Source: Ailanthus altissimus (lineage: Eukaryota > Streptophyta > Magnoliopsida > Sapindales > Simaroubaceae). From it: a stretch of DNA of 64,000 nt. A model generated the notes under the pieces. The model was not told the origin of the DNA and did not search any database. It saw nothing but the letters and a program-made list of their open reading frames with translations. Below, one piece after another: positions 23,519 through 63,534 of the stretch. The translations under genes and the position numbers were made by a program. Each line of letters starts with the position of its first letter. Position 1 is the stretch's first letter. Location of the stretch: contig OX327699.1 in NCBI GenBank assembly GCA_946807835.1, positions 2,845,001 to 2,909,000 on the forward strand, written 5' to 3'.

Positions 23519-25222
23519 TGTTAAGTGAGTGTGTGATTAATTAAGTGTACATATAATTTTAAAAATTTATTACACACAGCGAAAGTATCACATACAAAAT
23601 ACACTCAATCTAACATAATCATACACATATATCTCATATATGATCATATATATCAATTAAACAAATTACAAGTGAGAAAACTTAGCCGAATTAAAGATAG
23701 CTTTCAATTCTTTAAGAACTTCAATATCCAAGTCTTGAGCTCACCTTGAAGTGTGCTGTTGCACAATTCTAGTTCACAACTAAAACCGGTGAGATTGTGA
23801 AGCTAGAATAGTAACTCTAAAATTTCCAATAGTAGGTATTACCTCTCAAACAATTTGCTTCTATTTTTTGTGTTTCTTATGAGAGATGAGATGAATAAAA
23901 TATTTTTGATCTTTGTTCTCACACAACCCTTTGCATAGAACACTTAGGAAAACACATTTAGCTTATTCTCTCACAACTCTCTCATACGTAGATGGCTTGA
24001 ATAGAAATGAATCAAAATGAGTTCCAAATGGTTTTGTCAAAATAATGACTAATGGAAGTGCTCTCTTCACCATTCAACATTTTTGGCCATTCCATTTCAT
24101 TATCTTATAAAAAACACATGATTAATGGCCACAAAAAATTTCTATACCTAACATATGGAATATCTTTAATTATTTCAAGTAATCAAATGGCCAACATTAA
24201 AGTCCCTTATTTGGTAAATTATATCATTGTCATAATTGATGTTTATCATTTTAAAATAATGATAATAAATGAATTTTGTATTAATATTTAAAAACTATTT
24301 TTGAATAAGTACTTTTACCTCACTTGTTATTACTAGTAAGGTAAATTGACAATTTCAAGGTAAAAATAATTTATGGACAATTTTTTGTCACTTGTCAACA
24401 TCTTATTGATTAATAACTCTTATCAACCAATTATGTGATTTACTTAACATTTAAGTCTTGACAAATACACATCTTAAGGAACCCTTGAGGCATATTTTTG
24501 GTTTGCTGGAATTTTTTAGACCGACCTGTTCAATCCAATACACTGCCTCCGTTTACAACGATTTTACTTCATATTGTGAGACTCTCCAAGTTCATGCTCG
24601 GTTTGTTATACGAAACTTGTCCATACGTCTGTGAATAATTTTTCACACACATGTTACAGATATCATAAAGTGGCACGTTAGACCATAAAAGTTGAGGTTA
24701 TAACATATCCGTATAATCCTTCCATCATTGATATCCTGAAAAAAACAGAGACATGGATCAACATCGTCAAATTTTCATATGCTTGACTGTAAACTTATCT
24801 TCAGAATTTTATTTCAATAAATAATATCCGTAAACACTTTTACGATTTTATTTATTCCTAGGAAAAACATTTTTCCCAGTTTTTGTTTTACTGCTTATGG
24901 CCATAAGACCTTTTGAAACATAATATTAGAGCATCAGGATATATTACTCACCCAAATGAGCTGATGAGTCTTATATCTACACACATCGGACTCCATAAGC
25001 ATCAGACCATAACCAGCGACACCCAGCGATCAGACTATGAAAGATTTTTGACATGTGTGAAACTAAAGTATGATGGATCACTCATAGGCCCATCGTGCCG
25101 CTCAGATTAAAAGACCACGAATACTACTTAACTCGAGATAACCATCAATTGATAGTTTTATGGGATGTCTATTGGAGGTCCTCGTGAGTCTCTTCAGTAT
25201 CCAGTCTTTATTGAATACCTGT
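23519..25222 (-). repeat. Copia 5' LTR, downstream part
   Basis: This part runs from the LTR end (TTAACA at 23519) up to the insertion point of Athila-like element B. The last bases, CCTGT (25218-25222), form one copy of the insertion's target duplication. Confidence 0.88.
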
Positions 25223-26719
25223 TCTTTACGTTCAAATTGTAATGCGATTATTGCAGTATAGATTAAGGTATCGATCCCATGAAGAAGCTTTTGATAAAAT
25301 AGGTTAGTGAAATAAAAATATTAAAATAGTAACGAAAGAGAAAATTGAATGTGAGATTGATATAGAAAAGGTAAAATTAAATATAAATTAAGGAAGAAAA
25401 TTATAATGATGTGAGTAAGGCTTCGAGAATTACTAATATATATTTTAAATCTATTATATACTTTGTTTCAATGTTTATAATTCAATTGAAAATTTTACAT
25501 CCGAAACAGTCAATCGAAAGATATGTATAATATGACATATTTAATAAGCAATTTATTTGACATGACTAAACTCTTTGTAAATATTATCACAAACTATGTT
25601 CATTTATACAAGTTATCTAAGATCGACAACATATCATTTTGACAATATTGCAGTAAAAAATTAAAATGATGTAACCAATAACAATTATAATTCGACAAGA
25701 ATCACATAAAGAAAGCATGATTAAAAATATATGAAAAATGAGAATTATAACCTCTGGATTATAGAAAAGTAATAGATAAGAGTTTTGACACAACAAACTT
25801 ACAACATTGTAGCTCTTAACAAAAAATCAAAGTCTAGAAGTAGATTTATTACACATAGAAGTTCATCTCTAACCTTACCAAGAAATTTAGCCTAGTTTAC
25901 AATTCATTCTTATAAATATTAAAGGAAAATATTTAAGAGAATTGTAAGACATGAAAAAAACATCCATTAGCCTCCTAAAGGTGTCCTTATATAGGCAATG
26001 AATAAGAACATGTTTAGTGTGACTTCAATCAACACTAATTTTTGCCACCAACACCTTTATCTAATTGTAGCACCTTTTTGATAATAGAGACAATCGATAT
26101 AGCCTTTGTGGTCAACATGAAAGTTTCAGTATTTTATCTCTCTTTCTGTAGTCACCAGGTTCATGCAATCTTGATTAGTATCTTATGAGATATAGTCAAA
26201 ATACCAAAGCCATATTAGATTTCAGACAACAACTCTTTTATTAATTTGCAATCAAATTTGAACTATGATAACGACTGCTTTAGATGTTGGTGTCAATAGA
26301 AGAGTTATAGATAATTGACTCAAAATTTTCTAGCTTCAAGAATTATACTGATTGAATAATTATTTTGTAAAATAAATTCCAAGTATTGGAGATAAGTCAG
26401 GTTAAGGGGAGTTGTAATCTAGTTCTGTTGTATCCCAATTTTGGCCCATAAAATGTTGGATTTGACTTTTTGATTATTTTTCAAATTTGTGTAAGATTGA
26501 GTCATGCAGCTTCAAGTTCAACAATTTATTCATTTCAATTTTTACATTGAGAGTTATGTCCATTTTTGAAAACCATTGCAAATAATATTCATTAATCACA
26601 ATTTAATAACAACACTTTTTTTTTCAAGTTTAAAAATACAAAATGCTAAAATTAGTGACATTGTAAATGTTAAATAGTGACTGAATCTCTTAACAAATAT
26701 GATTTTAATATGTTTATTA
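25223..26719 (-). repeat. Athila-like B 3' LTR
   Basis: About 1.5 kb, matching 41199-42684 and 43796-45286 along its length. It contains a TATATAAG-type TATA element near 25988-25994 (minus strand), conserved in all three LTRs. A purine-rich remnant adjoins the inner edge near 26720-26730. Confidence 0.88.
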
Positions 26720-28096: not shown

Positions 28097-28744
28097 TTAC
28101 AAACAAAGTATCAGATTCAGTTTTCGCTTGTTATGGCCCATTGACCAATCTATCTGATTTGTTGCTAGGTCAGGTTCGAAGGTAACTGCTTGTAATTTGT
28201 CAATCAATTTATCAGCATTGGTAGCACATATAAGGATCTGTCGCACTTAATGTGAAATAATATTCTGTTCCATAGCTTAATCAAGAAAACAGAATAAGCA
28301 ATCAAAATAGTTACTGATATTCAACAAACCTATGAGTTTCTAATGGATATTCAATTGGGCTCAAAAGGAAATTTGAAAATTTTCTTCCAAGGTACCAAAA
28401 TCACCTGGTAAAGTAATAAAAGCATCTGTATAGTAAAGCATTCTAGCTATATGTTAATGTATGCATGAGACTCGTAATATTTTCACTATTGTTTTCCAAT
28501 GAGGTTTTCCACAGCTAAAACTGTAAGAATAATACATAAAACTTAACTTTCTCATAAATGTACAACTGTTGACACTCACCCCATTAACCCAAGGCTACCA
28601 TCTCTATATATTAAATAAAATTTTCTTACAGCTAATACTTTTCCTAGATTGTTTGCTACCTCTACTAACACTTTACTTTTTTTAAAGATTGGATCCACAA
28701 CATATACATATATTTTGAAATCATCAAACTGAGGTTCCCTTCAT
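28097..28744 (-). pseudogene. LOG-like: LOG-like cytokinin phosphoribohydrolase, copy B
   Basis: This is a degraded second copy of the retrotransposon-borne LOG gene. LOG enzymes release active cytokinin bases from cytokinin riboside monophosphates. From the ATG at 28744 (MKGTS) the readable parts are NICICCGSN, NNLGKVLAVRKFYLIY, GSLGLMG, DAFITLPGDFGTLEENFQI (the family's PGGxGTxxE motif with the second Gly now Asp), IGLLNI, ILICATNADKLIDKLQ, NQIDWS and a KR-containing tail to a TAA at 28097. There are many stops and a few frame changes and no introns. Start context, length and C-terminus match copy A at 54473-55125, so both descend from one captured gene. Confidence 0.82.
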
Positions 28745-28795
28745 ATCTACACTCACCTTCATCTCATATATGAAAATAAAGAAGATGAGGTGCTG

Positions 28796-28803
28796 TATTT
28801 ATA
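28796..28803 (-). promoter_or_regulatory. TATA box upstream of LOG copy B
   Basis: TATAAATA on the minus strand, within CTCTATAAATACAG, 52 bp before the LOG ATG. Element A has the same motif at 55191-55198. Conservation in two diverged elements suggests a real internal promoter. Confidence 0.6.
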
Positions 28804-29060
28804 GAGTATCAAATGATAACATCGATTTTAGTAACCCGATAATTGTAGAAGATATTTGAAAATAAAACACAAAAATTCAAAGATAACGACACACATACAT
28901 TATTCAACGCAAAGATTTGAATTTAAGATATCTATATTAGTAGTCCTACCTTTTATTGAAAAACAAATTTGAAATTAAGATGTATGTGTATGTATAGGTA
29001 GTTGTGATTGTGGCTTACATCTTTCTCGAGTTTTATGTCCAGAAATGGCGTAAATGCCAC

Positions 29061-29455
29061 CTATGGGTCAGGGATAGGCTTCCCATCCAATTTTTATATA
29101 AATTAGAAAATAGAGTCTTTTAGAGTCAGATTCTTGAAACTATATCACTAATGTTCAATTTTGAATTTGTTCTATAAATCAAGAAGTTCACGTTGCACGA
29201 ACCCATAAGGATGCGTCTCAAGAGTCACTAGGATAGCATCCAAAGAAAAATTACTCAGTCCATTCTTAATGAACTGAATTGTATCTTCTCGATTTCTAGA
29301 TACAAATCCTAAAGAATGACAACTCTGGTTACAATTCTATCGAGCACATTTATGACAGACTTGTAACTTTTTTACTCTTCACCTTTTGGCATAAGAGCTT
29401 CTTTCAAGACTAGGTATAAAAGAAACAAAATTATTTAGAGACTCACCAGATAATC
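29061..29455 (-). pseudogene. Cys-rich basic protein, copy B (5'-truncated)
   Basis: This is the counterpart of the small Cys-rich ORF at 55483-56031. The frame, open to the element's Tekay junction at 29455, reads RLSGESLNNFV, then SSYAKR, a stop, RVKKLQV, the cluster CHKCAR(stop)NCNQSC, SLGFVSRNRED, LVTLETHPYGF, NLTLKD and finally KLDGKPIPDP before a TAG at 29061. The C-x2-C-x4-C-x3-C spacing and the basic patch before it are the same as in copy A, and this copy has no frame change across that join. The N-terminus was removed by the deletion that also took the integrase. Function unknown; the layout resembles viral Cys-rich nucleic-acid-binding proteins (see copy A). Confidence 0.72.
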
Positions 29456-29818
29456 GTTAAAAGAACTAACTAGAATTCCTAACTTGGCAATCCATGAACT
29501 TGTCTCTAATTGGTCAATTCTCTAATATATGGATTGTGTTTCTCAACAAATGCTTGTTCCATACTTAACCCTTAAATGAAATTCATGTAGTACATTAAAA
29601 TTTCATTTTTCAAGCCAATAGAGAAAATTTTTAAAAATATTCTAGGGTCGTCCGACGCTCCGACCGAGTGTGAAATTATCAAATTAGGTCTAATATCTCT
29701 CACGTACACCATAAACAAATATTTTTAATAGGGTTAGAATCGGGTAACCCTACGGTGTCTTTATTACTCTATACTGAAATCTAGGCACTAATACTATTAA
29801 TAAAGATTGGATATTACA
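29456..29818 (-). repeat. Tekay 3' LTR, truncated
   Basis: Matches the first ~360 bp of the 5' LTR (37396 down to about 37030), beginning TGTAATATCCAATC. The remaining ~2.5 kb is deleted. Confidence 0.87.
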
Positions 29819-41192: not shown

Positions 41193-41198
41193 AATTTT

Positions 41199-42684
41199 TA
41201 TTTACGCTTAAAATGTAATGTGGTTATCACAGTATATATTGAGGTGTCGATCCTACGAGGAAGCTTCAAAAAATAGGTTAGTGAAATAAAAATATTAAAA
41301 TAGTAACGAAAGAGAAAATTAAAAGTGAGATTGATATAGAAAAGGTAAAATAAAATGTGAAGTAAGGAAGAAAATTATAATGATGTGAGCAAGACTTCGA
41401 GAATCACTAATATATTTTTTAAATCTATTTTATACTTTAACTCAATGTTTATAATTCAATTTAAAGTTTTACATCCTAAACAATCAATCGGAAGATATGT
41501 ATAATATGACACGTTTAATAAGAAATGTATTTGACATGACTAAACTCTTTGTAAACATTATCACAAACCATGTTCATTTATACAAGTTATCTAAGATTGA
41601 CAACGTATCATTTTGATAATATTGCTGTAAAATATTAAAATGATGTAACTTGTAACAATTATAATTTGATAAGAATCACATAAAAAAAGCATAACTGAAA
41701 ATATATGAAACATGAGAATTACAGCCTTTGGATTATAGAAAAGTAATAGATAAGAGTTTAGACACAACAAACTTACAATTTTGTAGCTCTTAACAAAGAA
41801 TCAAAGTCTAGAAGTAAATGTATTACACATAGAAGTTCATCTCTAGCCTTACCAAGAACTTTAGCCTAGCTTAAAATTCATTCTTATGAATATTAAAGGA
41901 AAGTATTTGAGAGAATTGTAAGACATGAAAAAAAAAAGGTCCATTAGCCTCCTAGAGGTGTTTTTATATAGGCAATGAATGAGAACATGTTTAGTGTGAC
42001 TTCAATCAACACCATTTTTGGCCACCAACACCTTCACCTAATTACAATACCTTTTCGATAATGGAGATGATTGATATAGCCTTTGTGGTCACCAAAAAGT
42101 TGTAACATTTTTTCTCTTCATTCTGTAGCCACTAGGTTGATGCAATTTGGATTAGTATCTTATGTGATATGGTTAAAATACCAAAGCCACATTAGATTTT
42201 AGATAACAACTCTTTTATCAATTTGCAACTCGATTTGGACTATGATAACAACTACGTTGGACTTTAGTGTCAACAAAAGAGTTAGATAATTGACTCAAAA
42301 TTTTTTAGCTTCAAGAATTATACTGATTAGATACGTATTTTATGAAATACGGTCCAAATACGAGGGATAGGTCAAGTTAAGCAGAAGTTGTAATCCAGTT
42401 ATATGTATCCCAATTTTGGCCCATTGAATATTGTACTTGACGTTTTGATTGTTCTTTAAATTTGTGTAAGATTGACTCTAAGTTTAAGAATTTCTTTATT
42501 TTGATTTATACATTGAGAGTTATGTATATTTTTCTAAACCTGTGCAAATAGCATTCATTAATCACAATGTAAGGACAACACTTTATTTCAAGTTTAAAAA
42601 TATAAAAAATGCTAAAATTAGTGACATTCTAAATGTTAAATGGTGATGAATCTCTTAAAAAAATGCATTTTAATGTGTTCATCA
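41199..42684 (-). repeat. Athila-like B 5' LTR
   Basis: About 1.49 kb, paired with 25223-26719. In element orientation it begins TGATGAACAC at 42684. A TATATAA-type TATA element lies at about 41964-41971 (minus strand). Confidence 0.88.
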
Positions 42685-43790: not shown

Positions 43791-43795
43791 AATTT

Positions 43796-45722: not shown

Positions 45723-45724
45723 GA

Positions 45725-46091
45725 GTTTGTTGCTATTGTTTGCAAAGAGTTTATTCATATCAAATACATTCATTATCAAATGTGTTATATTATACATGTC
45801 TTCCAATTGATTGTTTGGAATGTGAAACTTTTTAGCTATAAATGTTGAATAAAAGTAGAGAATAAATATATGAAGAATATTAGTGATTCTCAAAGCCTTG
45901 CTTATATCATCATAGATTTCTTCCTTAATTCATATGCAATTTTATCTCCTCCATATCAATCTCATATTCAAATTTCTCCTCTATTATTATTTTAATATTT
46001 TTATCGCTAACTTATTTTGACGAAAGCTTCCTCCTTAGATCGATACCTCAATCTATACTGTAATAATTGCATTATTGCTTGAATGTAAACA
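45725..46091 (+). repeat. Inverted fragment of B-type LTR
   Basis: This is the reverse complement of the 43796-44160 part of the neighbouring LTR, ending TGTAAACA at 46091, the LTR terminus. The two arms form a ~365-bp inverted repeat about 1.5 kb apart. No PBS follows. Confidence 0.82.
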
Positions 46092-48475: not shown

Positions 48476-48957
48476 TCTACATCATCAACAATAAACAAAC
48501 TTGGTTTAATTACTGCCCTTCAACATAATAAAAAACAACACCATCAATTTACAAAATTCCAATATTAAGTCCATTTGCAATATTGACCCCATCTCCAAAT
48601 TTCCCAAAAAACAAAACCCTAGATTATTTTGAACTCCTAATAGACACATAAAAAAAAACCTAGAAATTTTTGATGAAGACACATAACAACCAAATGAAGC
48701 ATTTAATGAAAATGTATTGTATGATTGGTGAAATCACAAATATTTAATCAAAATATTCTCATAAATAAAAAAACCCATCTATCAAACAACAAAACAAAGA
48801 TGATGAATCCAATAAAAATATCATCAAACCCAGATGGAGAAAAAAAGTGTATTCAAAATAAAAAACTTTTTTTGGTCTATTTTAGATTTTAAATGATTTA
48901 CTTACCGTGAATCAGTGCTTCTACCTATGAATTGAGGTTGTTCGTGTTGATGGTGGT
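48476..48957 (-). other. MULE upstream region, probable 5' intron
   Basis: AT-rich, noncoding. On the minus strand a good splice donor, CACG-GTAAGTAAAT, lies at about 48912-48898, suggesting a 5' UTR exon and intron before the transposase. The upstream exon is split by Athila-like element A at 48957/63530. Confidence 0.4.
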
Positions 48958-50397
48958 TGACACGTCCAGAATATAAGAGTTATTCCCAAGTGCAAGATTA
49001 TCGAAGTAATAAATAACCCGATAAGAACGGGGTCGATCCACAAAGAAGTAGAATTAAAATTACAAATTATAAACACTTTAAAGATAATTAATGCAGTATA
49101 AGATGTTTGCAAATATTATTTCAATTAACCAATTCAAATAAAAAGCTAAGGTTACGGGGATTCACTCTTGGCATAAGAAGTAAGAATATATTTAACTTTT
49201 TATTTTTTTTATAACTCAATTGGAATTCTCACACAAAGGAGGTTCCAACCGGAAAATATAGCAATTAAAGTTCATCATCATTTATATATTGATTAGTATT
49301 TATTTCTTTCAATTATTATACACCAAATCTTATAAATGGGTTCAAGTATTTATTATGCCAATCTTTATATTTGTCTACAATAAATCAAGACTCCAACTTT
49401 ACAAGAAAGGTTATATACACCAAATTTTGTAAATGGTTTCAAGAATTTATTGTGCCAAGTATTAAATTTGTCAATAATAAATCAAGAATCACCACTTTAG
49501 AAGAAAGGGTATTAATTCTACAAACAAAATAAATACATCATATATAAGTTTGCATAACTTAAAAATAAAGCATTAAAATTATGAATAAATATTAAACATA
49601 TCTTATTACCTTGCCAAGAGCTTCACCCTTTCACCTTAGCTTAAAGAAAATTATTTGGACATAATAAAACTAAAGAAAAAAGAAAAGAAATGGAAGAAGA
49701 AATAATATGATTTAATAGTAAACAAGAGAAATAAATTTACAAAGAAATGGATACAAAGGACAAGTATTTTGAACTAAATTCGAACTTTCTAATTACATTA
49801 TTTAGGCATAAACAAGCCACCTATTTATAGAAAAATATGGATAAATCGAGATAAATTTGGAGGGAACCACTTGGTTGATGAAAGTCAAGAATGGTGGCAA
49901 AATAATTTGCATTCATTATCACTTGGGCACCCACTTGATTATCTAATTTGGAATTGAGGTGCTCCGAATTAGCTGTCACTCAAAACATTAACGTTGTAGA
50001 TAAGTCTCTTATCTTTTCAAATTGAGTGATTTCATACATATTAGATATTTATTTCTATAGTTATGGGCCAAATACCGATGACTGTTCAAATTGGGCCTGT
50101 ACTACAGATCAGTTCTATTCTAGGTCATTTTTAACCCTCTAAACATTCTAATTTCCAATACTTTGTGAAATATAATATATTATCCCATTGAGTCATCTCT
50201 CCACAGGATTAAGAATCACCTCAATTGGATCTTTAGGTAGAAAGTTATGTCCATTTTACCAAACCTACCACAAAACAGTTAAAAGATAATTAAGTACAAT
50301 ATTGTAAACATACTTAAGTTAAGAAAATTAAATACACTAGTAATACAAAACAATCATGTAAAACTCTTATTAAATGTGTAATTTCAAGTGTTCATCA
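48958..50397 (-). repeat. Athila-like A 3' LTR
   Basis: 1440 bp, ending TGTCA (minus) at 48958 and starting TGATGAACAC at 50397. It is adjacent to a purine tract GTTGGGAGGTG (about 50398-50408, minus). Near-identical to 62089-63529. TATA element CTATAAATA at 49822-49830 (minus). Confidence 0.93.
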
Positions 50398-51260
50398 CAC
50401 CTCCCAACTAGCTTATTACTAGTCCCTAGCAATTCGAGCATAAATAAAATTTGAATACTACCTAAGTATTTCAAACAAAACGTCAGTTTAATAGACAATC
50501 GCTATAAAGGTTATTCAATCATAACTTTCAAAAATATTTTTGTGTGTGTGTGAATTAAGCCAAAGCCTTCTTACCACAAACCACAACATATATACCCTTA
50601 AAAAAATTTCAAGTAAAAACCTCAACTCCATATCCTTACAGGTGAATAACTTGTTTAATGGCTTAGGATTTCACTCATGGAGTTGGAAAACAAATAATCG
50701 CTCAAGAAAAAGTTATATTTAAGGACAGACAGACAAACTAACATTGATCCAAAGATAGGAAAATCAAATATTTAGAGTCAAACCATTATTGTCAAATGCT
50801 AGCTTCAAGACTTTAATTATTTAATGCGAATCTTACAAATATAGAATTCGGTGATAAAATTGCTTCCTAATGACTTTAGTCTTCTAAAATTGAATGAAGA
50901 CTTTATTGAACTGAATTGACTTCTTTTCTTTCTTTTTTTTTTTTACTCAATTTTTTTTTCTTTTTTGAAAGACATAAGGAATCATTACAAAATAAGAGCA
51001 ATTTATCACCATAATACTTTTTCAATTTTTTTTTTATCCTTCAGCTAAGCAACCAAATCATTCCTCATCCCAAATAATGTCATTCCAAATAAAAATTAAC
51101 AATTTTAAAATATCAATGAAAATTTGTAAGCCGTTATCTCAAACCTCTCCACTCACTCACAAAAGATATGTGAGTTTAGAAAATAATATGTATACTTAAA
51201 CATGAAAATTCTTTTGGCTATATATATTGAATCATATCTTACCACAAAGCTTAGTATTGT
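50398..51260 (-). other. Element A 3' internal noncoding region, part 1
   Basis: Begins with the PPT (GTTGGGAGGTG, minus) and aligns with 26720-27560 of element B. No conserved coding frame. It is interrupted at 51260 by a solo LTR. Confidence 0.7.
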
Positions 51261-53976
51261 TGTCACGCCCCAGACCCAAAAGATCTGACACACGACATCA
51301 CTTACATTCATTCAATAATACTTAAACATTCATTTTAATTTCTTTCAGAATTATAGTAATTGAATTATGACTGGGACAATTAGTAAACCGGAGATACGCA
51401 GAGTTTTCTCAGAGATTAACACTCTACTACGTCACCAGTAGCAACTTTATTACCGGAAGCCCAGAATATATTCATTGCAAATTCTTACTTAAAATCAATC
51501 CATTACTACACTTGGTGAAACTTAAACTAAATCCAACCACACACAATAAAATAATACATAAGTATTTATTCACTAGGGACAAATCAAATATCTTATCCCA
51601 CGTGTCCCCAAATGAAACACTTAGCAACCTAACAACTTAGGAAACCCAAGGAACAGCAGAAGCCTTGCCAAATCCGCTAAGCACACATGTACCTTATTTA
51701 CCTGAAATCACCATAAACTATAATGAGTATAAAACTCAGTAAGCATACTAGTTTTTCATATATCAAATACAAATACATATATGTACACGATGCATATGTA
51801 TGATATGCTGTGATCAATCAAAATCATAATCTTATCAAATCACATATCATGTAAGCGCTTACACATTCTTTCAAAACACATAATAGGAATACCATTACTC
51901 GACTACTACTTAGTAGGACTTACATATCACATATCACATAATGAGCCAAATGTCACTCGTAGGTGACATACCGTATGAGAGGAATAGTACAAGTGAGGTC
52001 TTTAAATCACACATATATAACGCTTATGCCCGAAGGTAAAAGCCAAACCCTCACCCTGATCATCGGTGAGTCCTCTCACATGTACCAATACGCCACCACA
52101 CGAATGTGATGACTCACACTTCCTTTAGGTACCAATAGGATCCTCCCTACATACGGAACACATAACATATACCAATCCCGAAGGAAAGGCCACACATAAA
52201 GGCTCCACAAATCACATAAAATGCCTACTAAGTTAACAGTGAGTTCAAGTACCCTCAAATCACAAAATATTTCTCATGGACATATTACACTTCAAAAGCT
52301 TTCTTTGTTAAACGCATCTTATTTTGGAAAGCTCACTTTCAAAAACACATGTATGTCCATGCTCAATGTCAATGCTCACATTCATAAACATATATTCACA
52401 TTTCATATCAAAATATACTTTGACATATCATAAACATATTCTTAACCCCATTTACAAAATCATACAAAACAATTATTATGTTTATTGTGATTCCAGTAGT
52501 AAGTCTAGTATACTTACCTCTTAGCACTTACAGCTACAAGGCTTAAATCTCCTTAACCTATCAATGGAGATCAATCCTTTCATAAGTCTCACAATTCACA
52601 CAAATACTTAAATAGCTTACAAAATTATACACAATGCATTTAACACATCAAATTGGTCTAAATACTTGATTTCTCAAAACTTGTCATTCTGACCACTTAC
52701 ACTTAACAAAATTTTCTAATAGATCAAATGATGTCCAATTACTCCAAAATCAGAATATATCATTCTTGACTCATATATCCTTCTTATATATGAATATTAT
52801 ATCAAAATTCCTACACAATTCATTTCATACACATCATCAAATCCAAACTACAAACCTGACAGGATCAAGATACTTACTGAACAGTATTCAATCTCCCAGT
52901 TTTATAAAATCATATACTAACTCAAAAATTATAAAACTACCACATAATTACTCTTAACACATATCTCAGTCCATGATAAATATTTCACTTCCAAATCACT
53001 GCCAAAAGTATTTTAAAACTATTTTATTCTATAACTTTAAAAATCTGTTAATCAAATATTACAATGAGCTGATACACTTTAGAAATTCATAACACTTCAA
53101 CCACATTGATCTAAATTCTCAATTCCGAGTATATCATATTAGACATATAAAATTATCATATTCCACAAATTCATAATTTTTGAAAATCATTCAGTAGGAC
53201 AAAAATTATTTTTCACTGTACTATACTGTTTACACAGGAAATTTCCAGAATTTCAGGGTCATTTTGGTAAATTCACTATAAATTCAATTTCCAGAATTTT
53301 AAATCGATTCAAAGTCTCAGATGATCCTTAACATGTCTAATTTCATATACTCAAAATTAAAAACCAGAATCGAATCACAACAATTTATAAAATTCCTAGA
53401 TCAAGAGGTTATCCAGCAAAAATTCCATAATTCATCATGATTTATCAAACTATCTTATAGATCATCATCAATTCTCATATGATCTTACGAAATACACAAC
53501 AAATCCTCAATTATACATATTTTCAGAAATCAAAACTTAAAGGAATTAACTTAATTAATACCAATAAATTGAGAAATACGTATGATATACCTCTTGAAAT
53601 TCAAAATTCCAATTTCTTCTTCTTTTTCTTCTTCTTCTCCTCTTTCTCTCTCCTCTATTTCTCTCTTCTCTCTCTTAAAATGGGTAGTTCGACCTAAAAA
53701 TAGTAAATTAGGGTTTAAAAGTGTATTTTTATACTAAGAGGCTAATTTTTGGTATTTACAAATTTGCCCCCAAAACTTTCAAAGTATAACAATTTGGTCC
53801 CTAAAATAATTCCAAAGTCTTGCAAATAAACCCAATACTAATAGTATATCCTTAACCTATAAAAACACTACTAATAACAATATATAAATCAGGGATCACC
53901 CACATACAAATAAAATACGTATATTTATATATATAAATATACATATTCTTACCGGTTATGGATACTGGTTACTACA
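51261..53976 (-). mobile_element. Solo LTR of a second Tekay-like gypsy family
   Basis: A 2716-bp sequence with TG/CA ends (plus strand TGTCACGCCC ... ACTACA) and the target duplication ATTGT on both sides (51256-51260, 53977-53981). The uninterrupted sequence of element B across this point confirms an insertion. No internal region is present, so LTR-LTR recombination removed it. The minus-strand end GGGGCGTGACA and the TTACTGAGTTTTATACTC block resemble Tekay/Del LTRs. It is not the same family as 34495-37396. It contains a pyrimidine-rich tract at 53615-53680. Confidence 0.87.
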
Positions 53977-54472
53977 ATTGTTCTCAAGAAATAATTTCAG
54001 AAGTTATTCTTTAGTAACCTAGATAGAAAAAGTGATTTAAACGAAACAATTTTGCAATCATATATTGATAGCAAAGCAAATTTATTTACGCAAGAGTTAT
54101 CAAGAACTTAAGCAACAAACATTTATACATAAAATGTATTAAAACTAAACCAATTAGAATGTGTTTCAAAAGTTTATAATGTACTCTTTACTCTGCCATT
54201 CTAGAGCTAGAATGCGTCTCAAGAATACATAAATGAACATTTTACTCACGCCATTCATGATAATAATAATTTTTTTTTTAGTAAACAAGGTGATAACAAT
54301 AATATCAACTATCTTCCCCCCCAACCAAATTGAGACATTGTCCTCAATGTCAAAATATAGAAAGAGTAAAGTATAGAAGATATCACCTGAAACATCTTTT
54401 ATTGAAAATTAAACCTACAACAAAATAAAACAAGCCACACAAAAAGCTTAAAAATATATAGAAACAGATAGG
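53977..54472 (-). other. Element A 3' internal noncoding region, part 2
   Basis: Continues the alignment with element B (27570-28096) after the solo LTR. Contains the internal purine tract at 54311-54325. No coding frame. Confidence 0.65.
54311..54325 (-). promoter_or_regulatory. Internal purine-rich tract (secondary PPT-like)
   Basis: The minus strand reads GGTTGGGGGGGAAGAT, preceded by ACATTGAGGACAATGTCTCA. The same block occurs at 27921-27941 in element B. Position just after the LOG gene and about 1.2 kb (without the solo LTR) from the 3' LTR suits a second plus-strand initiation site; this role is inferred. Confidence 0.6.
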
Positions 54473-55125
54473 CTACAGATGAAGCGTCAAATCTATCTTG
54501 CGTTTCTTTTCACTGTTATCAGTATACCAATCTATCTGACTCATTGTTGGATCAGATAGAGGTATAAAAGTTTGTAGTTCATCGAGTAACTGATCAACAG
54601 TTGAAGCAGAAATGAGGATCTATCGTGCTGTAGATGAGACGAATTATTTTTCCACTGCATAGTCAAGAAAAGATAACAACCCATTATAAAAACCATCAAC
54701 GTTTAACAAACCAATTGGTTTTTTATGGATTTTCAATTGTGCCTATGAGACAATTTGAAAAATTTCCTCCAATGTTCCGAAACCTCCAGGTAGAGCTATG
54801 AAGGCATCAGCATTACGAAGCATAAAAGAAATTCGTTCATGCATTGATGATACTTATAACTCATCCCTAATTGTTTTTCCTACAATGTCTCCAACAACTA
54901 GAGCTTTTGGTATGATACCCAAAACTTGACTGCTATTATTTTGTGCAGCGGTTGCCACACGTCCCATTAATTCAAGACTACCTCCCATATATACTAAATG
55001 AATATTGCGCTCAGCTAATATCTTACCAAGGGTTTCTACTGCTTCTATAAACGCACTAGTTTTCCAAGGCTGGATCCATAAAAGACACAAATTTTTGTGA
55101 GTTTACGAGTTGATGATCCTTCCAT
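54473..55125 (-). pseudogene. LOG-like: LOG-like cytokinin phosphoribohydrolase carried by a retrotransposon
   Basis: This is a captured plant LOG gene. LOG enzymes hydrolyse cytokinin riboside 5'-monophosphates to active free-base cytokinins in the cytosol. From MEGSSTRKLTKICVFYGSSL (ATG at 55125) through [50 protein letters not shown], the catalytic/binding PGGFGTLEE (the family's PGGxGTxxE), [35 protein letters not shown] to the terminal TAG at 54473, the whole ~215-residue family length is present. There are no introns, although host LOG genes have several, so it came through an RNA copy. Damage: one frame change near 55057 and four in-frame stops (about 54852, 54751, 54648, 54621), at least two at C-to-T-type positions. 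It lies downstream of the Cys-rich ORF and behind its own TATA box. Element B has the same gene at 28097-28744. Confidence 0.9.
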
Positions 55126-55190
55126 GATTACACTCACCCTCTCTCTTTAATGATTTTGAGTTTGTACAAAGATGCAGAAATAATACAATG

Positions 55191-55198
55191 TATTTATA
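55191..55198 (-). promoter_or_regulatory. TATA box upstream of LOG copy A
   Basis: TATAAATA on the minus strand (context GGCTCTATAAATACATTG), 66 bp before the LOG ATG. It is conserved with 28796-28803 in element B and suggests separate transcription of the LOG gene. Confidence 0.62.
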
Positions 55199-55482
55199 GA
55201 GCCAAAAGGTATTGCAAAGTTAAATCACATGGCTATTGGCTTGAAATACAAGATTCAACACCTTTTACCAATTTTCAATTTGTTAGCTAGAAAAGTCACA
55301 TGGGTTGTTGGTTTAAAATGCAAAATTTTCAAAAAGGATTATAAGTGGTTGATTATTGAAAAGACGTTTGAGTTTGAAATGAAATATTTAAAAATAACAG
55401 CTATAGTAAATATATACAAGTAGTTGTGATTGTGGCTCACATCTTCCTCTGATTTTACGTCCAGTAACGGCTTAAACGCCCT

Positions 55483-56031
55483 TTATGGGTCAGGGATAGG
55501 CTTCCCATCCAATTTTCTTATAAATTGGCAAACAGGGTCTTTTAAAGTTAGATTCCCGAGACTATACCGCTCATGTTCTTTTAGGAATATGTCCCATAAT
55601 TCATGAATTGCAATATGCACATATCCACTAGGATGCGTCTCAAGAGTCGATAAAATATTATCTAAAGACTCCTTACTCAGGTCATCCTTAATTAACCTAA
55701 TTTTATCTTCACGATTTACAGACACCATTCCTAAAGTGCGGCAACGTGTGTTGCAAGTCGTGCGTGCACACTTGTAACAAACATTTAATCGTTTTGCTCT
55801 TCGTTTTTTTTTAAAGAGCTTTTACCTAAGCCAAGCATGTAGAAAATTAATGAGTCTGAAAATTCACCTGTCAATCTAACTTTGGCTTCAATTAACCAAC
55901 GTAAATCAACAGGTATATTCATAATCATTAATAACCTTAATCTTTCACATCTTGCTTGGTAAATTTTCTTCAAGGAATTTTAAGACAATGAGGGAAAACG
56001 TTTTTTCAAATTTTTTTAGAATGTCATCCAT
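55483..56031 (-). pseudogene. Small Cys-rich basic protein, nucleic-acid-binding-like
   Basis: This gene lies between integrase and LOG. A likely ATG at 56031 (MDDILKKFEKTFSLIV) leads, after a frame change near 55970, into NIPVDLRWLIEAKVRLTGEF. Then a second frame change in a run of nine A residues (55804-55812) leads to a basic patch KRRAKRL, the cluster CYKCARTTCNTRC (C-x2-C-x4-C-x3-C), LGMVSVNRED, LSTLETHPSGYVH, NLTLKD and the end KLDGKPIPDP (TAA at 55483). Element B keeps the basic patch, Cys spacing and C-terminal blocks (29061-29455), so it was a real gene of about 180 residues. The plan of an N-terminal helical part, basic patch, then Cys cluster resembles the Cys-rich nucleic-acid-binding proteins of carlavirus-type plant RNA viruses. 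That is a resemblance judged by eye, not an identification; function is unknown. Confidence 0.68.
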
Positions 56032-56301
56032 TTTTTTTTTTTTTAGAAAAGGGGGAAGAAGAGAATATATCAGTAATTATGAAAAACTGACAAAATCGAT
56101 TTGAAATATCACAGAGTACCGTTATCTGCCACTTAATTGGGGTGCAAAATAAAACTTTAACAAAACTACTAAATTAACCTGCAAGTAAAAAAAAAATGTT
56201 AGAAGAATAATAAATATATATAAATATGTAAATATATAAAACAAAGATTAATTGGTCTCGTAACAAGGATCTGACAGGAATGTAAATTCTTCATGAAAAG
56301 C

Positions 56302-57505
56302 TTAATTTTCTAGAAACGGCTTGAGTCTTTGCCCATTTACCTTAAACACATTCCCATTTCTAAGATTTTTAATGTCAATTGTTCCATAAGGGTACACATG
56401 TTTCACAATAAAAGGGACACTCCATCTTGATCTTAATTTTTCAGGGAATATGTGAAGTCGAGAATTATAAAGCAAAACCTTCTGACCAGTGTCAAATGTT
56501 TTTCTTTGAATTTTTTTTATCATGAAAGGCTTTAATTTTAGCTTTATGAATTTTTGAATTCTCATATGCATCATTTCTCAATTCTTCAAGTTCATTTATT
56601 TATAATTTACGTATGTGTCCAACAGAATCAAGATTTTCATTGAAAGTTTTAATAGCCCAGTAGGCTTTATGCTCAAGTTCCACAGGTAAGTGACAAGGTT
56701 TTCCATACACTATCCTATAGGGAGACATACCCAATGAAGTTTTAAAAGCAGTTCTATAAGCCCACAGTGCATCAATTAGTCTTAAAGACCAATCTTTGCG
56801 ATTTGAGTTTACAGTTTTTTCTAAAATTTGTTTTATCTCCCTATTTGCTAATTCAACTTGTCCACTTGTCTGAGGATGATAAGGGGTGGCAACTTTATGA
56901 GTAATACCATATTTTTTTACGAATGTTTCAAATGGTCTATTACAAAAATGCTTACCCCCATCACTTATAATGGCTCGAGGGATTCCAAATCGACTTAAGA
57001 TATTTTCTTTCAAAAATTTTATGACTGTTTTATGGTCATTATTTCGACATGGAATAGCCTCGATCCATTTTGAGACATAATCTACTGCAACTAAGATATA
57101 CGTAAATCCAAATGATAACGAAAATGGTCCTATGAAATCTATCCCTCAACAATCAAAGATTTCAATAATAAGAATGGGGTTCAAAGGCATCATGTTTCGT
57201 TTTGAAATTAATCTCAACTTTTGACAATTTTCACAAGTTATACAAAATGCATGTGTATCTTTAAATAAAGTGGGCCAATAAAATCCACACTGCAAGATTT
57301 TTACAACTGTTTTCTTTGATGAGAAATGTCCCCTACATGCTTCAGAATGACAAAATTCAATAACTTTATTTACCTCATTGTCGGGTATGCATCTTCGAAA
57401 TATTTGATCACGACAATATTTGAAGAGATAAGGATCATCCCAATAAAACTTTCTCACCTCAGTTAAAAATTTTCTTTTGTCTTGAGCATTCCATTGAGGT
57501 GGCAT
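56302..57505 (-). pseudogene. Athila-like A integrase
   Basis: This is the integrase, which inserts element cDNA into the host genome. The N-terminal zinc finger is in 57505-57146 (H-x-n-H in the FCHSEACRGHF block, then CITCENC). A stop at about 57144 replaces a Trp (TGG to TGA type) just before GIDFIGPF with the first catalytic Asp. The second Asp is in [10 protein letters not shown] (about 56980) and the Glu follows [16 protein letters not shown] (about 56880-56835). After a stop at about 56600 the C-terminal part 56574-56302 ([13 protein letters not shown], then [19 protein letters not shown]) shows the GPF/Y-type domain, with one further frame break. Three or four lesions in all. Element B lacks this gene. 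Confidence 0.88.
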
Positions 57506-57513
57506 TTCTCCTG

Positions 57514-58296
57514 TTACAAGAAAATTAACAATATTAGCATACCAAGCATTGTAACAGTAGAAAATAAAAATTCATCTGGAAAAGAATCATTAATAGGTGT
57601 TATTTCTGTTGATGAATCTGGTGTGAGTCTTGATAAGTGATCTGCAACAACATTCTCAGTTCCCTTCTTATCCTTTATAGTGATAATAAATTCTTGAAGC
57701 AATAGAATCCATCGAATTAGCCTCGGTTTTGCATCCTGTTTTGACATTAAGTACCTTACAGCAGCATGATCAGTAAATACAACAGTTGAAGAACCAATTA
57801 AGTAAGAACGAAATTTGTCTAATGCAAATATTACAGCAAGTAGTTCTTTTTCAGTTGTTGTGTAATTCATTTGTGCATTGTTTAAAGTTCTACTTGCATA
57901 ATAAATGACATAGGATTTACCTTCCTTTCTTTGTCCCAATATAACACCAACAGCGTAGTCACTAGCATCACACATGAGCTCAAAAGGTAAAGACCAGTCA
58001 GGAGATTGTATGATAGGAGCAGATGTTAAGAGGCCAATTAATTTTTCAAACGAATTTTGACACTCTTGAGTCCACTTAAATGATACATCTTTTGCTAAGA
58101 GGTTACAAAGAGGTTTAAATATAGCACTAAAGTTTTTTATGAACCTCCTATAAAATCCAACATGTCCTAAAAAGGATCGAACTTCTCTGACTGTTTTTTG
58201 TGGAGGCAAATGTGTAATGAGTTCGACTTTTGCCTTATCCACTTCAATTCCTTTAGAAGATACTATATGTCCTAAAACAGTTCCAGAAGTAACCAT
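57514..58296 (-). pseudogene. Athila-like A RNase H region
   Basis: This long open stretch follows RT after a single Trp-to-stop (TGG to TGA type) at about 58309. It shows the RT connection ([15 protein letters not shown]), RNase H start [17 protein letters not shown] (first catalytic Asp), the [16 protein letters not shown] block with the catalytic Glu, [12 protein letters not shown] (next Asp) and [10 protein letters not shown] at the end. It removes the RNA strand of RNA-DNA hybrids during cDNA synthesis. A frame break near 57513 separates it from integrase. Confidence 0.88.
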
Positions 58297-58311
58297 GTAA
58301 TGACATTTTTC

Positions 58312-59085
58312 TCAATTCAATACAAGACTTTTTTCTTCACATCTTTTTAAAACTTTTTCTAAGTTTTCAAGACAATTATCAAAAGAATTTCCAAACACAG
58401 TTAAATCATCCATGAAAACTTCTAAATAATGCTCAATCATGTCACTAAAAATTCTTAACATACATCTCTGAAATGTTGCTGAAGCATTACAAAGTCCAAA
58501 GGGCATTCTTCTAAAAGCAAAGGTTTCAAAAGGGCATGTGAATGTAGTCTTTTCTTGATTCTCTAGTGCTATGGGAATTTGATAATAGCCAGAGTAACCA
58601 TCTAGAAAGCAATAGTAGGGATGTCCTGCTACTCTTTCTATAATTTGATCAAGGAATGGTAAAGGAAAATGGTCTTTTCTAGTGGCCGAGTTCAACTTTC
58701 TATAATCTATGCACATCCTCCAACTAGATGAGACTCGAGTTGGTATTAACTCACCTTTTTCATTTTCAATGACTGTGATTCCAGATTTTTTTGGTACTAC
58801 CTGAGTAGGACTTACCCACTTACTATCTGAGATAGGATAGATGATTCCTACTTCAAGTAATTTGAGAACTTTAGCTCTCACTACCTCTTTTATATGTGGA
58901 TTTAATCTCCTTTGAGATTGTTGGGAAGTTTTGGCATTATCCTCTAGGTGTATTCTATGTGTGCAAATTAGAGGATTAATACCATTTATGTCTTTTAAAA
59001 TCCACCCAATTGCATTTTTTTGCATTTTTAATAATTCAATCAACTTACCTTCTTGTTCACTTGTAAGTGTAGAAGAGATTACCAC
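58312..59085 (-). pseudogene. Athila-like A reverse transcriptase
   Basis: This is one open frame of 257 codons covering the fingers and palm: HRIHLEDNAKTSQQSQRRLN, YRKLNSATRKDHFPLPFLDQ, YCFLDGYSGYYQIPIA (first catalytic Asp), FGLCNASATFQRCM and the paired Asp motif FMDDLTVFG. Gene order protease-RT-RNase H-integrase is that of Ty3/gypsy. The catalytic residues are intact; only neighbouring stops break the polyprotein. Confidence 0.92.
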
Positions 59086-59094
59086 CGGGTAAGT

Positions 59095-59925
59095 TTATTT
59101 CTCTCTAAAAAATGCATATTTCAGTCCTTCGGGCAAAGGTTTTAAGTCTAACTTTGAAATTTCATTTTGTTTATCCTCATTTTCTCCCAATTCTTTAAAC
59201 TTTAGTTTCCATCCTTTATTTTCAATCACCTGTGCACAATCAAGTAAAGAATATATATAAGAGATTTCATGATCTAATTGTATATTTGACTCAAATGAAT
59301 TTATTAAACACATTTTTAAGGCATCGGTAGAACTCCCTTTTTGAATATGATCCTCTACAATCGTTTCAATCATGTCGCATTCTTCACTTTCATCCTCCCT
59401 TTCATATGGTTGCTTACACATATTGAAAACATTGAGTTTAAGTGTCATGTTTCTAAATGAAAGCTTCATTACTCCATTTCTGCAATTAATCAAAGCATTA
59501 GAAGTTGCTAAAAATGAACGACCTAAAATAACAGGTATCGGATTACATCCTTTGACAAGTTCTGTGTCCAAGACAATAAAATCCACAGGATATATGAATT
59601 TATCAACTTGAACTAAAACATATTCCACTGTCCCTCTTGGTACTTTTATTGATCTATCGGCAAGTAAAAGAGTTACAGATGTTGATTTTAACTCCCCGAG
59701 ATTAAGCTGCTGATAAACTGAATACGGCAATAAATTCACACTAGCACCAAGATCAAGTAAGGCTTGTTCAATTTTATGACTTCCAATAATACATGAAATT
59801 GTAGGACAACCAGGGTCTTTATATTTCAAAGAATTATTGTTCTGAAGAATGGCACTTACTTGTTCAGCTAAAAATGCTTTCTTTTTCACATTCAGTTTTC
59901 GCTTTACTGTGCATAAATCTTTCAA
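59095..59925 (-). pseudogene. Athila-like A aspartic protease region
   Basis: This is an open frame with the retroviral-type aspartic protease: GCPTISCIIGSHKIEQ, then ALLDLGASVNLLPYSVYQQL, where the DLGAS Asp is catalytic. The flap and ILGRSFLATSNALIN segment follow. The remaining ~100 codons are the acidic linker before RT. The protease cuts the gag-pol precursor. A frame break near 59925 separates it from gag. Confidence 0.9.
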
Positions 59926-61519
59926 AAATATTAACTTTTACCTGTTTGAAGATTTCAAAAATTTCAGGATTGTGATTCATCTTCTTAGTATTACGTAATG
60001 CATGAGGAAATGGAGGTGGAGGTAAGGGTTTGGTGTTTTCTTCATTAGATGTAGGTTCAACACTTTCCTTACCATTAGAGATTGATTCATCACTCTCATG
60101 AGGTTCAGGAATTTCCTTTTCAACAATTTTACCACTCCGAAGAGTGATAACTACTTTAACTTGATCGATGTGTTGGCTTCCTGAACTACATGCATTTGAG
60201 TTATGTTGTCCTTTAGGGTTTGGCTGTGGTTGAGAATGAAATTTTCCTTTCTCATGAATGTTCAGTGCAAATGCAAATTTAGCAAGAGTATCTTTCAAAT
60301 CAGCAAATGTTTGAGCATTTTGAGAATTAACAGACTCTTGTTTTTCAATGAATGTATGCAAGGTTTCTTCAAGATTTTTCCTAGGAGGTGAGACATATGG
60401 TGCATAACCTTGATGATTTTGAAAGTTTTGGTGTGGTTGGAAAGGTGGCTGTGAAGCCTGTGCTTGAGTGTCATTCCTCCAACTAAAATTCGGGTGATTT
60501 TGCCATCTAGGATTATAGTTTTATGAATATGGATTATTGTTTGACCGTTTAAACGTGTTTAGAACATTGGCTTGTTCATGGAGACATTCCCTAAATACAG
60601 GCAAAGTTGGGCAATCATTGGTAGAGTGATTATGGATTTCACAAATGTGACACACAATTTCTTGAACATATTTTATTTGACCACTCTTTTTCATTTCTAA
60701 TGTTTCGACTTTTCTAGCAAGGGATGCTAATTTGGCTTGAAGGTCATGGTCTTCCTTAAGATGATAAATACCCTCACTAGATGTAGTGGTTTGATTTTTG
60801 CTAGGTGGCTCACAGGTACAAGCAGTGTCCTAATTTTGAGCATTTTCTGCTAGTAAGTCAAGATAGTTCATTGCCTCTTCTGGGTCTTTTTCCTCAAATG
60901 TTCCATTACACATCATTTCTACCATTTGCCTAACTTGGGGTGTTAAGCCCTCATAGAAATTTGAGACTACTCTCCATGTTTCAAAACCATGATGGGGACA
61001 GGTATTAAGTAATTCTTTATACCTTTCCCAACATTGGTAAAGGGTCTCTCCTGGTTTTTGGGCAAAAGTGGTGATTTGTTTTTTGAAAGAATTTGTTCTA
61101 TGGGAGGGAAAAAACTTTTTCAGGAATTGTTGTTGCATCTCATCCCATAAAGAAATGGATCCTGGCCTAAGGTTTTGTAGCCATGTTTTAGCTTTATCTT
61201 TTAAAGAAAAAGGGAAAAGCTTAAGTCGAATTGTGTTCATGCTACAATTTTGATCATTATACGTGTTACACACTTCTTCAAATTCTCTTAGATGTAGATA
61301 AGGGTTCTCTGCATCTAAGCCATGAAAAGTGGGTAAAAGTTGAATAATACCTGGCTTAAAATTAAAATGCGTTGCAGCCGGAGGAAAAATTAAGCAAGAT
61401 GGTGCACCAGTTCATGTAGGGTTCATGTAGTCTCTAAGTGTCCTAGGTCGGTTATGCTCATTATGTTGAGATTGATTGTCCCCTGGGTTTATGAGTCCCT
61501 CAATTTGATTTTCGCTCAT
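59926..61519 (-). pseudogene. Athila-like A gag
   Basis: Capsid gene starting at the ATG at 61519 (MSENQIEGLINPGDNQSQHN). The retrotransposon gag domain lies in 61370-60830 (IRLKLFPFSLKDKAKTWLQN, KPGETLYQCWERYKELLNTC, FYEGLTPQVRQMVE). It continues with an Arg/Cys zinc-knuckle-like stretch (CHICEIHNHSTNDCP, about 60650-60605), YNPRWQNHPNFSW and a Pro-rich end (PLPPPPFPHALR, about 60030). In-frame stops at about 61412, 60830 and 60521 interrupt it; the first two sit at CGA- or TGG-type codons, suggesting C-to-T changes. Sequence and length are typical of Athila gag. Confidence 0.9.
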
Positions 61520-62061
61520 AGTGTTAATTAGTAAAAATGAAAAGATGAAGGAGAATCTAACAAACTATCAAAGGAAGTTTTGAAATTACCTTTCACCAAA
61601 CGATAAGAATTAGGATCTCGAAACCAACCGCTCATAAAAGAAATAAAATACAATACAATAACAATAAATAATACAAATAAGAGAAAAATAAATATTAAAC
61701 ACAAGTAAATAAAATAGGAAAAACGAAAAGCAAAATAAAGATAAATAATTAGAAGTTAGATTAGTAATGTTAGATTATATAATAAACAAAATAATAAATA
61801 AAGCACGTTAGGAGGCTCGGCCTTCCATGAAAATAAAAAAACGAAAAAAAAATAGAATAATAAATAAAGTAAAGCAAGTTAGGAGGCTCAGCCTTCTATG
61901 AAAATAAAAGGCAAAAATAATAAATAAAGTAAAATAAATTAGGAGGCTTAGTCTTCCATGAAAATATATTTAACGAAAATAAAAAGTAAATAATAAATAA
62001 AGTAAAGCACGTTAGGAGGCTTAACCTTCCATGAAAATAAAATAAATAAAATATTAATTTT
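61520..62061 (-). promoter_or_regulatory. Element A 5' leader
   Basis: Untranslated region between the PBS and gag, about 540 nt and A-rich on the plus strand. Its PBS-proximal half is the hairpin repeat array described separately. No conserved long frame. Confidence 0.75.
61800..62045 (-). repeat. Element A leader tandem repeat with bulged hairpins
   Basis: Four units with cores at about 61808, 61880, 61941 and 62012 and spacing of 60-72 bp. The minus-strand core is CATGGAAGGCCGAGCCTCC or a variant. The RNA can fold GGA-A-GGC / CGA / GCC-UCC: a 6-bp stem, one bulged base on the 5' side, 3-nt loop. This is the same geometry as element B (40640-41060), where the stem is GGU/ACC. Two of the four units keep full pairing and two have one mismatch. 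An ATG in the first strand of the stem opens a very short frame. Confidence 0.72.
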
Positions 62062-62082
62062 ACCTCCCCGGCAACGGCGCCA
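62062..62082 (-). promoter_or_regulatory. Primer binding site (tRNA-Asp)
   Basis: TGGCGCCGTTGCCGGGGAGG on the minus strand, six bases inside the 5' LTR. This is the canonical Athila primer site. Confidence 0.95.
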
Positions 62083-62088
62083 AAAACT

Positions 62089-63529
62089 TGACACGTCCAG
62101 AATATAGGAGTTATTCCCAAGTGCAGGATTGTCAAAGTAATAAATAACCCGATGAGAACGGGGTCGATCCATAGGGAAGTAGAATTAAAATTACAAATTA
62201 TAAACACTTTAAAGATAATTAATGCAGTATAAGATGTTTGCAAATATTATTTCAATTAACCAATTCAAATAAAAAGTTAAGGTTACGGGGATTCACTCTT
62301 AGCATAAGAAGTAAGAATATATTTAACTTTTTATTTTTTTTTATAACTCAATTAGAATTCTCACACAAAGGAGGTTCCAATCGAAAAATATAGTAATTAA
62401 AGTTCATCATCATTTATATATTGATTAGTATTTATTTCTTTCAATTATTATACACCAAATCTTATAAATAGGTTCAAGTATTTATTATGCCAATCTTTAT
62501 ATTTGTCTACAATAAATCAAGACTCCCACTTTACAAGAAATGTTATATACATCAAATTTTGTAAATGGTTTTAAGAATTTATTGTGTCAAGTATTAAGTT
62601 TGTCAATAATAAATCAAGAATCACCACTTTAGAAGAAATGGTATTAATTCTACAAATAAAATAAATACATCATATATAAGTTTGTATAACTTAAAAATAA
62701 AGCATTAAATTCATGAATAAATATTAAACATATCTTATTACCTTGTCAAGAGCTTCACCCTTTCACCTTAGTTTAAAGAAAATTATTTGGACATAATAAA
62801 ACTAAAGAAAAAAGAAAAGAAATGGAAGAAGAAATAATATGATTTAATAGTAAACAAGAGAAATAAATTTACAAAGAAATGGATACAAAGGACAAGTATT
62901 TTGAACTAAATTCGAACTTTCTAATTATATTATTTAGGCATAAACAAGCCACCTATTTATAGAAAAATATGGATAAATCGAGATAAATTTGGAGGGAACC
63001 ACTTGGTTGATGAAAGTCAAGAATGGTGGCAAAATAATTTGCATTCATTATCACTTGGGCACCCACTTGATTATCTAATTTGGAATTGAGGTGTTCCGAA
63101 TTAGCTGTCACTCAAAACATTAACGTTGTAGATAAGTCTCTTATCTTTTCAAATTGAGTGATTTCATACATATTAGATATTTATTTCTATAGTTATGGGC
63201 CAAATACCGATGACTGTTCAAATTGGGCCTGTACTACAGATCAGTTCTATTCTAGGCCATTTTTAACCCTCTAAACATTCTAATTTCCAATACTTTGTGA
63301 AATATAATATATTATCCCATTGAGTCATCTCTCCACAGGATTAAGAATCACCTCAATTGGATCTTTAGGTAGAAAGTTATGTCCATTTTACCAAACCTAC
63401 CACAAAACAGTTAAAAGATAATTAAGTACAATATTGTAAACATACTTAAGTTAAAAAAATTAAATACACTAATAATACAAAATAATCATGTAAAACTCTT
63501 ATTAAATGTGTAATTTTAAGTGTTCATCA
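62089..63529 (-). repeat. Athila-like A 5' LTR
   Basis: 1441 bp, beginning TGATGAACAC at 63529 and ending GGACGTGTCA at 62089. It pairs with 48958-50397. The GTGGT target copy follows at 63530-63534. Confidence 0.93.
62954..62961 (-). promoter_or_regulatory. TATA box of element A 5' LTR
   Basis: TATAAATA on the minus strand (context TTTCTATAAATAGGTGG), in the middle of the LTR and conserved in the 3' LTR at 49822-49829. It probably drives the genomic RNA. Confidence 0.65.
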
Positions 63530-63534
63530 GTGGT

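Follow-up and report, generated by a model that had tools for sequence, protein, structure and literature searches.

Two accessory genes, LOG-like and virus-type, apparently under purifying selection in an Athila-like retrotransposon family of Ailanthus altissimus

The window, a stretch of 64,000 nucleotides from the Ailanthus altissimus genome (assembly GCA_946807835.1, contig OX327699.1, positions 2,845,001 to 2,909,000), contains a complete Athila-like LTR element, element A, which occupies 48958-63529 on the minus strand (Table 1). Its LTRs, aligned as 48957-50397 against 62088-63529, are 97.5% identical over 1442 columns, have TG...CA termini and are bordered at both flanks by the 5-bp target-site duplication ACCAC, as read from the sequence. 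The primer-binding site TGGCGCCGTTGCCGGGGA is presumably that for tRNA-Asp; no tRNAs were found in the 64-kb window. The gag, protease, reverse transcriptase, RNase H and integrase pieces are arranged in gypsy order and are separated from each other by stops or frame changes. The name Athila (Ty3/gypsy, OTA) rests on the preliminary description of this DNA and on anatomy, and is used here only in the form Athila-like. The ATHILA ORF-1 domain (PF03078) had no match in the window pieces scanned or in the 182-aa accessory gene described below; according to an excerpt of PMC6317226, this domain is present in 16% of Athila elements and most are without it. The flanks of a 2.7-kb stretch of element A are contiguous, at L062 612-621, in the single sister copy compared in addition to L008.

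Table 1. Features of elements A and B in the 64-kb window
Feature	Position	Strand	Basis
3' LTR, element A	48958..50397	-	LTR alignment, TG...CA ends
5' LTR, element A	62089..63529	-	LTR alignment, TG...CA ends
Target-site duplication ACCAC (element sense)	48953..48957	.	read from flanks
Target-site duplication, second copy	63530..63534	.	read from flanks
Primer-binding site TGGCGCCGTTGCCGGGGA	62065..62082	-	sequence just internal to 5' LTR, element A
gag piece	60833..61273	-	PF03732, E 1.1e-21
Protease piece	59098..59925	-	PF13650, 8e-6
Reverse transcriptase piece	58315..59085	-	PF00078, 1.6e-23
RNase H piece	57517..58296	-	PF17917, 4.7e-37
Integrase piece	56603..57013	-	PF00665, 1.5e-7, 32.1 bits; slightly below 32.6-bit cut-off
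Accessory gene 1 remnant, virus-type cysteine-rich nucleic-acid-binding protein, frameshifted	55486..56015	-	tblastn 91-97% to open copy
TATA box CTCTATAAATACA before LOG ATG, element A	55189..55201	-	
Accessory gene 2, element A: LOG pseudogene (open copies: 217 aa)	54473..55125 (LOG sequence 54476-55125)	-	
2.7-kb stretch in element A	51265..53977	.	missing from one sister copy compared
5' LTR, element B	41198..42682	-	LTR alignment, 86%
Accessory gene 1 (CRP-type) remnant, element B	29064..29456	-	interrupted by nested element
TATA box preceding element B LOG	28794..28806	-	
LOG pseudogene, element B	28100..28744	-	tblastn 50% to open B-type LOG
3' LTR, element B	25222..26717	-	86% identical to 41198-42682

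A LOG homologue is found between the integrase piece and the 3' LTR of element A, in sense with gag-pol. The preliminary description had placed it in this interval without giving a strand, which is minus, and both LOG motifs that it quoted are present in the window sequence. Its full-length reading holds for the extent of the gene but not for its intactness, since a frameshift close to codon 22, together with four stops in the reading frame, makes the window copy a dead pseudogene. Read through with each of the four stops written as X, it matches Arabidopsis LOG3 (PDB 2a33) with an E value of 9.5e-53, and two open pieces match PF03641 (2e-13 and 4.3e-7), which rules out a chance resemblance to LOG. 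Recent insertion of a host LOG beside element A is likewise ruled out, given the copies elsewhere in the genome and the one at the homologous place in element B.

Element B carries its LOG at the corresponding place and, as had been described, in a more decayed state than element A. Both elements are homologous on either side of LOG (blocks of 77%, 67% and 75%), and no match was found between the LTRs of one and those of the other, consistent with the earlier claim that these differ. Element B is split by a nested gypsy element (29452-37396) that has gag (PF03732) and RNase H/integrase zinc domains and whose end pieces, 29452-29818 and 37029-37396, are 87% alike; it is the insertion of this element that interrupts the CRP-like gene of element B. 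Other repeats were seen nearby. A third, truncated LTR with an inner edge related to element B (74-75%) lies at 43753-45722, followed directly by an inverted LTR piece (45724-46092), and a diverged repeat family is present at 3890-7960, 16127-18277, 21765-25222 and 42684-43224, with direct and inverted copies that are 79-87% alike. An inverted match of 78% between 1-1643 and 34495-36162 shows that part of the nested element recurs at the start of the window.

Between integrase and LOG there is another accessory gene, missed by the preliminary description, which encodes 182 aa in open copies and probably specifies a virus-type cysteine-rich protein (CRP). The order downstream of pol is, in sense, the CRP gene and then the LOG-like gene behind a TATA box, and between the end of the CRP frame, in copies where it is open, and the LOG match there are 359-360 nt in A and 314-318 nt in B. 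The viral nucleic-acid-binding family PF05515 was matched by 29 of 29 open CRP frames at E<=0.01 (best 2.6e-9), and the carlavirus nucleic-acid-binding family PF01623 by 28 of the 29 at the same threshold (best 1.9e-7). The first member scored above both curated cut-offs, reaching 29.7 bits against 23 for PF05515 over 83 residues, and the open window remnant (55486-55815) scored below the 23-bit cut-off of that family (2.7e-4, 21.4 bits). Viral CRPs are silencing suppressors and pathogenicity determinants, and those of mandariviruses and allexiviruses have a zinc finger as well as a nuclear localisation signal (excerpts of PMC12172455).

Family members were located in the genome (939 Mb, 37 contigs) using LOG DNA and protein queries. 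For the A and B LOGs as DNA queries the best 40 matches each were scored, of 2883 and 2727 first-look candidates, and for the protein query the best 150 of 3830. Of these 150 protein matches, 149 read straight through the host exon boundary and one is a host exon; an open frame of at least 200 aa was present in about 110 of the 149 uninterrupted matches listed. Because only the best matches are scored in such searches, intact copies are favoured in this sample. As to the possibility raised earlier that other family members lack LOG, many carry it among the members found via these LOG queries. Among the loci fetched, a complete 217-aa LOG frame was present in 13 of 30 A-type loci (window locus included) and a complete 215-aa frame in 6 of 30 B-type loci; the CRP frame was open in 18 and 11, and both genes in 11 and 5, respectively. 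A splice-donor-like motif, GGTGAGTGTA, was also seen just ahead of LOG, no more than 30 nt from its start, in 25/30 A-type and 16/30 B-type loci. An open LOG copy scored above cut-off for PF03641 and TIGR00730 (4e-40 and 4.5e-57) and below the NF058542 equivalog cut-off (131.4 versus 300 bits), which belongs to a prokaryote model. A-type LOG copies other than that of the window differ from L008 by 0.5-3.3%, mostly about 1%. C>T or G>A changes made up 395 of the 623 differences from the majority in these 29 A-type loci, as expected of methylated, silenced copies.

Upstream of LOG, the TATA-box sequence TATAAATA begins 72-73 nt ahead of the LOG start in every one of the 30 A-type loci, and 59-60 nt ahead of it in 26 of the 30 B-type loci. 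Between A and B, the non-coding sequence immediately upstream of LOG is only 45-49% alike, and the TATA box was kept while this adjacent stretch diverged, which suggests that the LOG of the element may have its own promoter.

Codon comparisons were then made between the subfamilies. Open LOG frames compared in 78 A-B pairs gave a dN/dS of 0.12-0.17, with synonymous sites near saturation (pS 0.65-0.70), and a codon model applied to three A and three B copies gave an ML omega of 0.174 (2dlnL 103 against omega 1). Reverse transcriptase of the two decayed window elements had a dN/dS of 0.10, and pN was similar for the two genes (0.22 for RT and 0.21 for LOG); LOG is therefore conserved about like pol. 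Judged by these ratios, the comparison of the two subfamilies shows that the element LOG was kept under purifying selection and not merely carried. The dN/dS check among retrotransposon copies put forward in the preliminary description accordingly gave purifying selection between subfamilies, and the gene that it saw travelling as a passenger is indeed carried by the family but is apparently more than a passenger. Within subfamilies, LOG pN/pS was 0.80 (A) and 0.64 (B), so recent copies are little constrained, as would be expected of young copies mostly past selection. The CRP gene also shows purifying selection by the same kind of comparison, with a dN/dS of 0.18-0.23 (mean 0.20) over 198 A-B pairs and rejection of omega 1 (2dlnL 40; best grid value 0.3; three A and three B copies). 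Nucleotide identity between A and B is 58-73% in the LOG block and up to 82% in the best flanks, one well-matched flank being itself coding, namely the CRP-like gene. Between A and B, dS is higher for LOG (1.7) than for the neighbouring CRP-like gene (0.9), a mismatch that simple joint descent does not predict; perhaps there was recombination between lineages.

We then considered the active site, mapping residue positions of CgLOG onto the retro-LOGs by motif and offset. According to excerpts of PMC4979012, Arg99 and Glu122 are proposed to carry out catalysis in CgLOG, the adenine/prenyl pocket is lined by Lys100 (adenine and prenyl site) and Glu125 (prenyl site), and activity is nearly abolished when AMP-binding residues, with one exception, are changed to alanine. 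Open retro-LOGs retain the catalytic Arg99 (18/19) and Glu122 (19/19) together with the PGGxGTxxE motif (Arg, Glu and motif: 18 and 19 of 19), as well as Met96 and His97 (19/19) and Trp129 (18/19). Lys100 is replaced by Ile and Glu125 by Gln in 19/19, positions that are invariant in the 17 cellular LOGs compared. The hydrolase core is thus kept and the base-side pocket altered, and we read the protein as a selected, possibly retargeted enzyme. With two pocket residues changed in all 19 open copies, cytokinin as a substrate is unproven and doubtful, and the label cytokinin-activating, given in the preliminary description, is not supported as stated.

Host LOG genes were located by searching with a short exon peptide; at least 20 host-like rows were among the best 150 matches scored, and 15 of these loci were read. 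Their spliced models have seven exons in nine cases, six in three and four in three, and the A-type and B-type retro-LOGs are without any host LOG intron. Host LOG pairs of near-equal score occur on different contigs of this genome (C20/C27, C18/C19, C7/C4 and C3/C10 in G000, among the matches listed), which suggests an old genome duplication. We built an ML tree of 24 rows comprising 14 host LOGs, AtLOG3, AtLOG8, two bacterial sequences, three A and three B copies; host locus L076 was omitted as broken. A-type and B-type LOGs formed one clade (support 100/97) outside the plant LOGs, and they do not group with different host LOGs, an outcome that the preliminary description would have taken as refuting its proposal. 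The single clade is more secure than its placement beyond all plant LOGs, since the tree is rooted on two long bacterial branches. A and B LOGs are 66.5% identical to each other, and 49-56% identical to AtLOG3, AtLOG8 and one host LOG (six comparisons). No match was found between host LOG flanks and the stretch upstream of the element LOG; beside one host LOG (L067 3125-3213) there are short matches, at neighbouring places, to the sequence downstream of LOG, of 58 columns for A and 38 for B. No LOG relatives were confirmed in IMG/VR contigs. With one LOG clade, the same position, homologous flanks and no introns, a single capture predating the A-B split is the best supported origin on these comparisons, in agreement with the capture before the split of the subfamilies that had been proposed from the window.

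Our main reading, to which we give a probability of roughly 0.7, is that an Athila-like Ty3/gypsy lineage long ago acquired a spliced LOG coding sequence and kept it as a real accessory gene. Had a host LOG transcript instead been transduced once and copied along without function, one would readily understand that both window copies are broken, that no complete frame is present, by the criterion used, in 17 A-type and 24 B-type loci (of 30 each), and that C>T or G>A changes are so frequent among the A-type differences. Such a dead passenger is strongly disfavoured by the omega of 0.17 between subfamilies, by the open frames in both and by the catalytic residues common to the retro-LOGs, and we regard it as quite improbable. 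More improbable still is that LOG was captured twice, from two members of a divergent host LOG clade missing from our sample, with the low omega due to selection in the host. The excess of LOG dS over that of the CRP gene and the partial sampling of host LOGs (15 loci read, with at least 20 host-like rows among the matches listed) would allow for this; against it, A and B have in common the site, the homologous flanks on both sides, the TATA box and the Lys-to-Ile and Glu-to-Gln changes, and their LOGs form one clade and resemble each other more than AtLOG3, AtLOG8 or the host LOG compared.

A different question is what the selected protein does. That it is no longer a cytokinin LOG, and acts on another nucleotide or binds instead of cleaving, is a serious contender that we place a little under even odds: the replacement of Lys100 and Glu125, kept in all cellular LOGs compared, and the near loss of activity on alanine change of AMP-binding residues, all but one, in CgLOG (excerpts of PMC4979012) favour it, and the retained Arg, Glu, PGGxGTxxE, Met96, His97 and Trp129 speak against it. 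As to the CRP, a basic, Cys-containing retroelement protein, for example one with a nucleocapsid-like finger, might resemble the viral profiles by chance and not by homology. The window remnant is indeed under the PF05515 cut-off, no relatives were confirmed in IMG/VR contigs (query with a composite B row) and none came under E 0.28 in the PDB, and viral homology was judged by profiles. We nevertheless think chance resemblance unlikely, given the matches of all 29 open copies to PF05515 and 28 to PF01623, and a first member above both curated cut-offs.

Under our main reading, LOG would have transcripts that start at a promoter of its own, not spliced ones from the LTR, and the protein would cleave ribose 5'-phosphate from a purine nucleotide, N6-modified or other. 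It might aid the element by locally altering the state of hormones or nucleotides in cells that divide, and the CRP might dampen RNA silencing of the element. Perhaps, then, the family carries a two-gene module in which an RNA-virus-type gene, a probable silencing suppressor, is joined to a host-captured LOG with a reshaped pocket and its own promoter, both selected for the benefit of the element, countering silencing and altering hormone or nucleotide state much as a gall former does; this wider proposal is tentative, and we would not bet on it at evens. What extra genes do for plant LTR retrotransposons is mostly unknown. The two described here have named relatives, open copies and signs of purifying selection, for LOG about as strong as for RT, and it therefore becomes testable whether the success of a retrotransposon in its host involves the use of a plant hormone enzyme, in original or retargeted form, together with a virus-type protein.

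Steinbauerova et al. reportedly described, in 2011, two Athila-like elements that are similar to LOGL4. In the excerpts consulted of Alvarado-Marchena et al. (2022, PMC9289625), which cite that work for LOG-domain elements, a YgdH (LOG) domain is present in LTR-element consensuses of Citrus sinensis and C. clementina, and a looser filter adds Populus trichocarpa. The preliminary description knew of no described Athila lineage with LOG cargo; the cargo is not undescribed and is known in kind. Like the elements studied here, those are plant Gypsy elements with a LOG domain, with at least five consensuses per Citrus species; for them, the same excerpts give neither a selection test nor a promoter, and neither pocket residues nor a second accessory gene. 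The open-licence literature searched contained no further paper on LOG in Athila or other LTR retrotransposons and, partly at the level of titles and abstracts, no report of a CRP in a plant retrotransposon. Within that literature the two-gene module, the selection evidence, the pocket changes and the TATA box appear new. Compared with the plant cytokinin riboside 5'-monophosphate phosphoribohydrolases AtLOG3 and AtLOG8, the retro-LOG shares full-length homology, PGGxGTxxE and the catalytic Arg and Glu, and differs in being intronless, 49-52% identical and changed from Lys100 to Ile and from Glu125 to Gln. The CRPs of carlaviruses, allexiviruses and mandariviruses (PF05515, PF01623) have in common with the element's protein the profile match over the basic and cysteine region; the latter has 182 aa and is encoded by a retrotransposon. 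Insect LINEs with RNA-virus helicase domains, for which silencing suppression has been proposed (excerpts of PMC5563155), differ in gene, element class and host, but there, too, an RNA-virus-type gene has been kept by a retroelement.
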